A DNA stretch of 64,000 nucleotides from Acetobacter thailandicus (GTDB taxonomy: Bacteria; Pseudomonadota; Alphaproteobacteria; Acetobacterales; Acetobacteraceae): contig NZ_WOSV01000004.1 of the NCBI RefSeq assembly GCF_011516655.1, forward strand, positions 1 to 64,000. The letters run 5' to 3'. Both the position numbers and the translations under genes were made by a program. Shown in pieces: positions 51,769 to 54,414 of this stretch. The notes beneath the pieces are model-generated. The model had not been told where the DNA came from. It saw nothing but the letters and a program-made list of their open reading frames with translations, and did not search any database. Each line of letters begins with the position of its first letter. Position 1 is the stretch's first letter.

Positions 51769-51809
51769 CCGTGACGCTGTTTTGATGACAAAGCGTCGCG
51801 GTTTTTTTT
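51769..51809 (+). promoter_or_regulatory. Intrinsic terminator in the leader of the DMT permease (possible attenuator)
   Basis: A 10-bp stem (CCGTGACGCT/AGCGTCGCGG, one G-T pair) with a 13-nt loop is followed by eight T (51802-51809). No plus-strand gene lies upstream except tRNA-Asn 1.5 kb away, and the permease starts only ~26 bp after the T run. This points to regulated termination in a leader, or to the 3' end of a small RNA. Confidence 0.6.
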
Positions 51810-51835
51810 GCCTTCAGGATATGGCACCTCATCTT

Positions 51836-52765
51836 ATGAACACAAAAACTCTTTTCTCTGGCATGGCGCTTGCTTTTGGGGCGTACGCGTCATTCTCGAT
51901 CAGTGACGCGTTCTCGAAAATGCTGGCGGGACATATGAACCCGTTTGAGGTTGCTTTCTCAGGTGGTGTGTTCGGGCTGCTTATTCTGCCATTTATTCGC
52001 AAACCACATGAGTCGTATCTCGATGTTGTGCGGCCGCAAAATAAGGCTATGTGGGTTTTGCGTGCTGTGTGCGTTTTTGTAGCGACAGCAGCCAGTGTAA
52101 AGGCTTTTATGCTGCTGCCTATGCCTGAGGCTTTTTCTCTTATGTTTCTGATGCCGTTATTTGTCACTATTCTTTCAGTTGTGTTGCTGAAAGAGAAAGT
52201 GACGATATGGGCGTGGATTGCGGTTGTGCTTGGGTTTGTCGGTGTGCTGATAGTGCTGCGCCCTGGTGTGCGTGCCCTGAACATAGGGCATTTATGCGCT
52301 TTGCTTTCAGCTATATCATGCGCAGGTAGTGTTATAGCCTATCGTGTGGCTGATAAAGAAAGTGTACGTTTGTCTCTGTTTGGCTCAAGTCTGGCGGGGC
52401 CGCTTATCGGTAATGGTATTCTGATGGCCGCTAATGCAGCCTGGCCGCCGCATATTACTGCCTGGGTATATTTGTTTGGTTATGGTTTTCTGGCTGCATT
52501 AGGGCAGCTGCTGCTTATGCTGGCGACAGCCCGTGCTCCGGCTAACCGTGTTGCTTTGCCGCAATATAGCCAGATGGTCTGGGCCATTGCGCTAAGCTAT
52601 ATCGTTTTTCATGATGCGCTGGATGTCTGGACCTTTGTTGGTATTGCCGTCATTACTTTTTCAGGCATGCTCAACTGGTTTCGTCAGCGTATTCGCTACG
52701 AGCGTATGGCCATGAAGGAGCGTGCAGAGCGTAATCGTGCTTTGAAAGCCGGGATGTTGAAATAA
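51836..52765 (+). CDS. DMT-superfamily (EamA) permease
   Basis: This 309-aa protein has ten predicted membrane segments in two EamA halves (LFSGMALAFGAYASFSISDA, FVATAASVKAFMLLPMPEAF, VLGFVGVLIVLRP; then YLFGYGFLAALGQLLLMLAT and VGIAVITFSGMLNWF). DMT permeases export amino acids, metabolites or drugs; the substrate is not readable. In-frame starts at 51785 and 51821 exist, but 51785 is inside the leader terminator loop and 51821 sits 1 bp from the nearest AGGA, so 51836 is preferred without strong ribosome-site support. The C-terminal tail is basic. Confidence 0.82.
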   Translation: MNTKTLFSGMALAFGAYASFSISDAFSKMLAGHMNPFEVAFSGGVFGLLILPFIRKPHESYLDVVRPQNKAMWVLRAVCVFVATAASVKAFMLLPMPEAFSLMFLMPLFVTILSVVLLKEKVTIWAWIAVVLGFVGVLIVLRPGVRALNIGHLCALLSAISCAGSVIAYRVADKESVRLSLFGSSLAGPLIGNGILMAANAAWPPHITAWVYLFGYGFLAALGQLLLMLATARAPANRVALPQYSQMVWAIALSYIVFHDALDVWTFVGIAVITFSGMLNWFRQRIRYERMAMKERAERNRALKAGMLK

Positions 52766-52986: not shown

Positions 52987-54414
52987 ATGGGTATGGAATA
53001 TATAAGTTATAATGGTGTAGCTGCCGGTATAACTAACCAGAAACTGGCGCTTATTGGCCTGGCTCATAAAGCGCTGAGAGAGAAGAAGGGTATAAAGCTT
53101 CCTCCTCTGGTTATGTTTGATCCGCAGAGCAGAGAACCCCGGCCACGGGTTGATTTTGCGTCAGTATTTGATGTTCGTTATATTTGTTATGTTCTTAATG
53201 CCTTTTCCATTCCTGTTAAATACGGGCCGGATGATGATTATCAGGAAGTTGATTCCTCAGCCTGCTTCTGGGAAGGTGCAGAGCGGTTTGGAGAAACTAA
53301 AATCCTTGGTGATATGGCGCTTTATGGGCTGACGTGCCAGCTCACCAGGGCTTTTATTCTGAATGACACTATAGAAGAAATTGCTACGATCATTAGTGAT
53401 GGTATTTTTCAGGATCGTGATATCAAACATGTTATACAAATGCGTGTTGAGAAAGACTGGGAAGATTACAGCCATAGTGTTTTAAGTCCGGTTAAGTATG
53501 AAGATAATTTACTGGCGCCATCAGCTATTCTGTCGAAAGCCAAAAATAAATTTGGATATTTATTATCATCAGCATTAATTCTGTGTGATGAGAATAATAT
53601 GCCATACTCAAAAGAAGAAATAAGAACTATAGCAAAAAAAGATTTCAATATTTATTTATACTGGAAATCGGATTTTATTAACATAAGAGAATATGATACT
53701 CTTACCTTATCACTTATTGATTTTTCTCTTTCTTTGAAGGCGACTTTTTTTGTGGGGACATGTAAATCTACTTTTTCATGTTTTGCTGCATTTGAAAAAT
53801 ATTGTAAGGAGCGGCATGATACGCTCAATCATTTTATTTATAATGGACAGACACCAGAGCTGGAGGAACGTTTTGATAACGGCACCAGTACAGATTCGCG
53901 TATAGCAACTAAAAACTTTTTTGGGCGCAAATGCCTTATGCCTCGCCATGAGAAAGAAATTGCTCTGCCTGTAAGGCTGTCAGCTCATATTTCTAATATT
54001 GGTGATTTTCATACACAGAGTTCTGTTGCCTCTTTCCCGGAAAGCACTCCTGTGGTGGTGGGTTATTTTGAAAATACTGCCCGTTTCAGAATTGAGGGGT
54101 TTGAGCTGCATATAAATCCTGAAAATTTACGGATCAGGTATAAAGCTGTGTTGTTGAATGGCCGCATCAGCGACTGGGTAGCGAATGGCGTATATTGTGG
54201 CACCAGAGGGGAAGGGATGCCGCTTGTCGGTTTTGCTATAGAGATAGCCGGGCCGGAAAGTCTGGAGCTGGATTGCGTTTATGCAGCACAGTTTTCAAGT
54301 GGAGAAATTGTCACGGAAGTTAAGAATGGTGAGATGTGCCGCAGCACATCAGGGATAGAGAAGCTGATATCTATGCAGGTCTCTTTTCGAAAAAAGAAGT
54401 TTAAGAATAGCTGA
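52987..54414 (+). CDS. O-fucosyltransferase-like protein with C-terminal ChW-like repeats
   Basis: This 475-aa protein's N-terminal ~300 residues resemble GDP-fucose O-fucosyltransferases (GT65/GT68-like GT-B). NQKLALIGLAHKA and LVMFDP begin the fold, VIQMRVEKDWEDYSH has the R-x-EKD pattern of motif I (conserved Arg), and ATFFVGTCKSTFSCFAAF at ~252-268 resembles the FIGNCVSSF motif of POFUT1. Residues ~327-470 hold about three ChW-like (hydrophobic with conserved Trp) repeats, clearest in RYKAVLLNGRISDWVANG with CGTRGEG after it. No signal peptide is seen. The gene is more AT-rich than its neighbours, especially 53500-53800, suggesting acquisition. ATG 52993 is an alternative start. Function is inferred and unproven. 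Confidence 0.6.
   Translation: MGMEYISYNGVAAGITNQKLALIGLAHKALREKKGIKLPPLVMFDPQSREPRPRVDFASVFDVRYICYVLNAFSIPVKYGPDDDYQEVDSSACFWEGAERFGETKILGDMALYGLTCQLTRAFILNDTIEEIATIISDGIFQDRDIKHVIQMRVEKDWEDYSHSVLSPVKYEDNLLAPSAILSKAKNKFGYLLSSALILCDENNMPYSKEEIRTIAKKDFNIYLYWKSDFINIREYDTLTLSLIDFSLSLKATFFVGTCKSTFSCFAAFEKYCKERHDTLNHFIYNGQTPELEERFDNGTSTDSRIATKNFFGRKCLMPRHEKEIALPVRLSAHISNIGDFHTQSSVASFPESTPVVVGYFENTARFRIEGFELHINPENLRIRYKAVLLNGRISDWVANGVYCGTRGEGMPLVGFAIEIAGPESLELDCVYAAQFSSGEIVTEVKNGEMCRSTSGIEKLISMQVSFRKKKFKNS

Follow-up and report, generated by a model that had tools for sequence, protein, structure and literature searches.

The gene at 52987..54414 encodes a 475 aa protein in which a POFUT-fold glycosyltransferase domain is fused to three ChW-like repeats. 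We read it, with a probability of about 60%, as a cytoplasmic inverting GT-B enzyme of the POFUT/NodZ/FUT8 superfamily, whose triple-ChW module would hold an acceptor or a partner enzyme and whose donor is probably not GDP-fucose. The computation supports the fold, a conserved nucleotide-sugar site, the triple-ChW module, the recurrence of this module on other glycan enzymes and horizontal gain. The window, the whole 64,000-nucleotide stretch analysed here, belongs to contig C4 of a genome of 2.80 Mb in 45 contigs. Its relevant features are the following.

52987..54414, + strand: gene of the fusion protein, 475 aa, POFUT-fold glycosyltransferase plus three ChW-like repeats; ORF open, ATG start
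52987..53916, + strand: glycosyltransferase domain, residues 1-310 (GT-B, POFUT/NodZ/FUT8 superfamily)
53035..53040, + strand: N17-Q18, counterpart of CePOFUT1 N43-Q44, kept in 20/20 homologues
53437..53460, + strand: Q151-M-R-V-E-K-D-W158, counterpart of CePOFUT1 HLRNDADW (R240, W245), from residue conservation
53767..53775, + strand: S261-T262-F263, counterpart of CePOFUT1 S355-T356-F357, from residue conservation
53971..54129, + strand: ChW-like repeat 1, residues 329-381, approximate boundary
54130..54267, + strand: ChW-like repeat 2, residues 382-427, approximate boundary; the copy recognised by Pfam
54268..54396, + strand: ChW-like repeat 3, residues 428-470, approximate boundary
51782..52765, + strand: EamA-family transporter (Pfam), upstream neighbour of the enzyme gene

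The structure model of the window protein has a GT-B fold, and its closest structural matches place it, at fold level, in the POFUT/NodZ/FUT8 superfamily. The structural search, which for this protein mainly tests residues 1-309, ranks POFUT entries over NodZ (Z 19.2-17.5 vs 15.9-15.6). POFUT1 and POFUT2 belong to families GT65 and GT68, and NodZ, a bacterial alpha-1,6-fucosyltransferase, to GT23. The NodZ chains among the matches, with 286-292 residues, are also too short for the tail of the window protein. In terms of sequence, identity to POFUT1/POFUT2 is 12-18%, and the Pfam O-FucT profile (PF10250) reaches 15.4 bits on the full protein, under its cut-off of 31.5 (E 0.015, residues 240-267). 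Two tail-less homologues pass this cut-off with 47.9 and 35.5 bits (1.9e-12 and 1.1e-8). A class-wide PF10250 search gave 0 matches, in its control genomes too, and carries no weight. PHROGs and NCBIfam, searched at E up to 0.01, did not place the window protein in any family. Unlike POFUT1/2, the window protein is bacterial, probably cytoplasmic and fused to ChW, with Q in place of H238 and G in place of R40.

The initial annotation had recognised an O-fucosyltransferase-like N-terminal half by the motifs MRVEKD (residues 152-157) and VGTCKSTFSCF (residues 256-266). Both are present and the domain assignment holds; of the two outcomes it had named as speaking against it, no fucosyltransferase match and a non-GT-B fold, neither occurred. 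A chance motif match is ruled out by the fold, the site conservation and the homologues, all in agreement.

In CePOFUT1 (PMC3180450), N43, R240 and W245 are critical for activity, S355-T356-F357 make phosphate and guanine contacts, and H238 contacts guanine. The window protein has counterparts of N43, R240, W245 and S355/T356/F357. Across a 20-protein alignment, D157, S261 and F263 are found in 20/20, R153, W158 and T262 in 19/20 (with one S at T262) and Q151 in 18/20. By analogy with R240, R153 would stabilise the leaving diphosphate. The counterpart of H238 is Q in the window protein and in 18 of the 20 proteins. These site residues cannot tell fucose from other GDP-sugars.

The family was searched in 120 relatives, then in 299 genomes of the order, plus a named scan. 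The full-length fusion was found as 14 proteins in 11 genomes: the window genome (G000, two copies), Acetobacter cibinongensis (G001), A. malorum (G034), A. senegalensis (G038), A. orientalis (G040), Gluconacetobacter sacchari (G346, two copies), G252, the Acidocella genomes G294, G266 and G339 (two copies in G339), and Acidisoma silvae. The count leaves out G009, where a contig ends within a fragment of the gene. Furthermore, six proteins have the enzyme domain without the tail, in Acidiphilium rubrum (G171), G188, G144, Rhizobium sp. NFR03, Sphingobium scionense and a Beijerinckiaceae MAG. Elsewhere the enzyme domain is rare: in the phylum sample, 2 of 398 genomes have it, one being the window's own. 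On these sequence searches, the fusion is a small, sparsely distributed family and not a singleton. It is a real architecture made of known parts, and we found it not described in the literature searched, as judged from titles and abstract openings.

The second full-length copy of the window genome, on contig C2, is 36% identical to the window protein. In four Acetobacter genomes, including this C2 copy, the gene order is glycosyltransferase, fusion, amt-type gene. Three of these genomes also have a glnK-type gene further upstream, and for the fourth its antisense frame alone is listed; glnK and amt were named by eye. The upstream glycosyltransferase matches Pfam Glyco_tranf_2_4 in G000, and those of the others are 62-70% identical to it. 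These loci (L033, L034, L036 and L037) put a glycosyltransferase and the fusion enzyme beside glnK-like/amt-like genes, an odd place for glycan genes. A Glyco_tranf_2_4 gene is likewise the neighbour of the G. sacchari fusion and of the tail-less Rhizobium gene; none was seen beside the window copy or the A. malorum copy. The link of the window copy to a glycan pathway rests on its relatives, because there is no adjacent glycosyltransferase at the window.

As for the sugar donor, GDP-fucose requires GDP-mannose 4,6-dehydratase (gmd) or fucose salvage. We searched 14 genomes with a gmd profile at E 1e-5. Four of them (G171, G266, G294 and G339) have a full-length match of 1e-118 or better, under the curated cut-off; in the other ten, which include the window's, no match is better than 3e-22. 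In the window genome, listed as 100% complete, the best match is 2.5e-21 and falls inside the rmlB gene. An earlier gmd search of 299 genomes at 1e-30 agrees. The fucose-salvage family PF07959 was found in 0 of 13 genomes tested, with one of 14 control genomes over its cut-off. Among the ten full-length carrier genomes tested, seven (G000, G001, G034, G038, G040, G252 and G346) show no gmd-level match; these, together with G009 and its fragment, appear unable to make GDP-fucose, and the three Acidocella carriers (G266, G294 and G339) probably can.

Fucose is an unlikely donor in the window genome, because neither a gmd-level match nor a salvage enzyme was detected, and the fucose donor implied by the initial annotation did not find support there. 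We conclude that the name of the fold should not be taken to name the reaction catalysed. In Acetobacter the donor would probably be another cell-made sugar nucleotide, with GDP-mannose or dTDP-rhamnose as first candidates. Genes for GDP-mannose pyrophosphorylase and of rmlB type are present in 10/10 genomes (the rmlB match of G294 is partial), the dTDP-rhamnose route being judged from rmlB alone. Plant GT106 rhamnosyltransferases (RRT) are related to O-FucT and use UDP-rhamnose as donor. They differ from the window enzyme in being eukaryotic and in having a different acceptor. They are a possible precedent for O-FucT-type sequences that do not use GDP-fucose (PMC7343896).

A true GDP-fucose-dependent fucosyltransferase, fed by an undetected route or by fucose taken up from the environment, would fit the closest solved folds, which are fucosyltransferases, and the gmd genes of the three Acidocella carriers. 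We consider it unlikely for the window protein, given the weak gmd matches of its genome, the salvage family missing from all genomes tested and the change of the guanine-contacting H238 to Q in most of the family. Some family members could nevertheless use GDP-fucose, considering the gmd-type gene in the three Acidocella carriers and in the tail-less Acidiphilium G171.

In the C-terminal half, about three ChW-like repeats had been proposed, and profile alignment supports them. A Nostoc plasmid protein has three ChW stretches (E 8e-28), and hhalign of a 30-row module alignment against it gives a probability of 98.5 and E 2.3e-15 over 136 columns, covering all three units. The ChW profile (PF07538, cut-off 22) scores 20.5 bits on the full window protein (E 4e-4, residues 396-420) and 23.3 bits on the window module scanned in isolation; it matches 26 of 30 module sequences from different contexts, scanned singly with E up to 10. 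The isolated module, with a repeat over the cut-off, and the tandem seen in the Nostoc alignment assign the tail to PF07538. In a column-shuffle test, shuffles scoring as high numbered 0/100 for repeats 1 and 2, 1/100 for repeats 2 and 3 and 4/100 for repeats 1 and 3, the last similarity being weak when taken alone. The tail is like ChW repeat proteins in its three tandem repeats, aligned end to end with the Nostoc protein, and unlike them in that its repeats are divergent, under the Pfam cut-off in the full protein, and sit on a glycosyltransferase without a visible export signal.

A comparison of the module with PDB sequences returned two matches only, both SuhB at E 1.5, so no solved module structure was found by sequence. 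Within the full-length model, 10-residue blocks of the module have pLDDT between 66 and 96, with residues 348-351 below 50, and DSSP assigns strands of at least 3 residues to all three repeats, four in repeat 1, two in repeat 2 and three in repeat 3. The C-terminal part folded alone, with no alignment supplied, has a pLDDT of 32.

ChW repeats are better known from cell-wall and surface proteins, and the initial annotation had viewed them as a surface or adhesion module, which our results do not favour. The window protein has no signal peptide by eye (N-terminus MGMEYISYNG) and no membrane segment by hydropathy, its highest 19-residue mean being 1.38. Sugar nucleotides, furthermore, are cytoplasmic as a matter of general knowledge. 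A protein exported non-classically, which would glycosylate surface molecules outside the cell, could invoke the RR-containing leader (by eye) at the start of the Nostoc protein and the listing of ChW among cell-wall-binding domains of bacterial hydrolases (PMC6403190). We hold this to be very unlikely, as the same modules also occur on glycosyltransferases and methyltransferases: outside the fusions and the secretion cluster described below, 9/10 fetched module proteins carry a glycosyltransferase, methyltransferase or GSCFA domain. Nothing in these sequences evidently marks the ChW part as a surface module, and in our interpretation it would serve in the cytoplasm, for docking or for binding the acceptor.

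The whole-protein profile matches 199 of the 299 genomes of the order, mostly through the tail alone and mostly in frames of ~270-470 aa. In the class sample the module is present in 7 of 289 genomes, four of them outside the family. We fetched 21 loci with the module outside fusions. At 11 of them the ChW protein is of the same type as a C-terminal-only protein on contig C9 of the window genome, its third match, and the modules form one clade (98/92). Ten of these 11 loci share six genes, whose products are an ABC exporter, HlyD, a protein with Sel1 repeats, a TPR-GT2-GT4 protein, the ChW protein itself and a GT4; the remaining one, L045, matches only two of the six. The cluster was seen in Acetobacteraceae at L038:8039-18987 (G000:C9), L040, L041, L043, L044, L046 and L071-L074, and in L071 the TPR-GT and ChW parts are in one 1450-aa frame.

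The other ten module proteins were picked for unusual frames and are not a random sample. Pfam finds GT61 in four (one with GT2_4, one with a methyltransferase). Of the rest, two have only a methyltransferase, two have GSCFA, one has GT90 and one has no clear partner. Both GSCFA proteins are from Acidocella (L060:7688-10129 and L067:5245-7644), with the ChW-like module N-terminal and GSCFA C-terminal, and that of L060 lies close to a fusion enzyme. Finally, ten Azospirillum plasmids match, and the two opened (L131 and L134) have a calcium-binding protein, then a TPR-GT2-GT4-ChW protein of 1380-1398 aa, then methyltransferase and GT4 genes. RTX repeats were confirmed in one of the two calcium-binding proteins. 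The six-gene cluster looks like a type I secretion-linked glycosylation system, and the neighbourhoods of the module suggest that glycosylation and type I secretion are connected.

In the module tree the FucT-linked modules do not come together (4 label changes, though starred branches force only 1), so exchange of the module among proteins is possible. Plasmid and phage origins of the fusion were rejected: in all 12 plasmid records the match began no earlier than query residue 306, none of 50,697 phage records matched, and viral_contigs yielded no confirmed relative.

The window copy was likely gained horizontally, as had been suggested at the outset, judging from its base composition, from the distance between panC and cobG in relatives and from the gene tree. 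Its GC is 0.404 and its GC3 0.354, compared with a GC of 0.49-0.55 in four neighbours, 0.514 in the window and 0.493 in the C2 paralogue. The AT-rich middle noted earlier is real: of five segments of 95 residues each, the third (residues 191-285) has a GC of 0.277. So is the single-gene context: the gene is flanked by the EamA transporter and by cobG of a cobalamin gene cluster (by eye), with no adjoining glycosyltransferase gene and no operon partner seen. EamA and the enzyme gene both sit between panC and cobG (names by eye). A search for cobG in 49 genomes of the genus, the window's included, matched 24 relatives; panC is upstream of cobG within the short fetched flank in 4/24, at ~280 bases in L104 and L105, 650 in L111 and 1350 in L107, and neither EamA nor the enzyme gene was found in any of the 24 flanks. 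In the enzyme-domain tree the window copy pairs with G. sacchari (100/99) and next joins G252 (96/96); the Acetobacter glnK/amt-linked group (100/98) is separate.

In the second G. sacchari copy (L055:5860-7434), C replaces the catalytic R and L replaces the W; this paralogue is probably dead, next to one that is live. Immediately downstream of the orthologue in G. sacchari, L055:10460-11851 encodes a 463-aa protein, tail-fibre-like by eye only, without a Pfam match (E up to 0.001) or a PHROG match (E up to 0.01). That the window copy is itself a decaying, functionally inert acquisition, as its AT-richness, missing operon partner, second full-length paralogue and the site loss in G. sacchari might hint, is improbable in view of an ORF intact over 475 aa, retained site residues and 52-53% identity to the other G. 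sacchari copy.

We return to the reading as a cytoplasmic glycosyltransferase with a docking module. The enzyme would act on a glycan or glycoprotein before export, the adjoining Glyco_tranf_2_4 transferase of several relatives may make the acceptor, and through the ChW module different enzymes would be able to reach a common substrate or one another. More tentatively, and with the odds against it, the triple repeat could be a common docking tag of a cytoplasmic glycosylation line that decorates type I-secreted proteins in acetic acid bacteria and Azospirillum, with the Acetobacter POFUT-fold enzyme using a non-fucose sugar, which would be a donor change within the fold of the animal protein O-fucosyltransferases.

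The missing GDP-fucose route and the recurrence of the module on glycan enzymes are what raise the interest of this family. In alphaproteobacteria, ChW repeats occur on several glycan-modifying enzymes and are linked in the genome to type I secretion, which suggests a protein or polysaccharide glycosylation route; no such route was described in the titles and abstract openings searched. A bacterial relative of POFUT1/2 where GDP-fucose seems to be lacking makes donor specificity in this fold directly testable.
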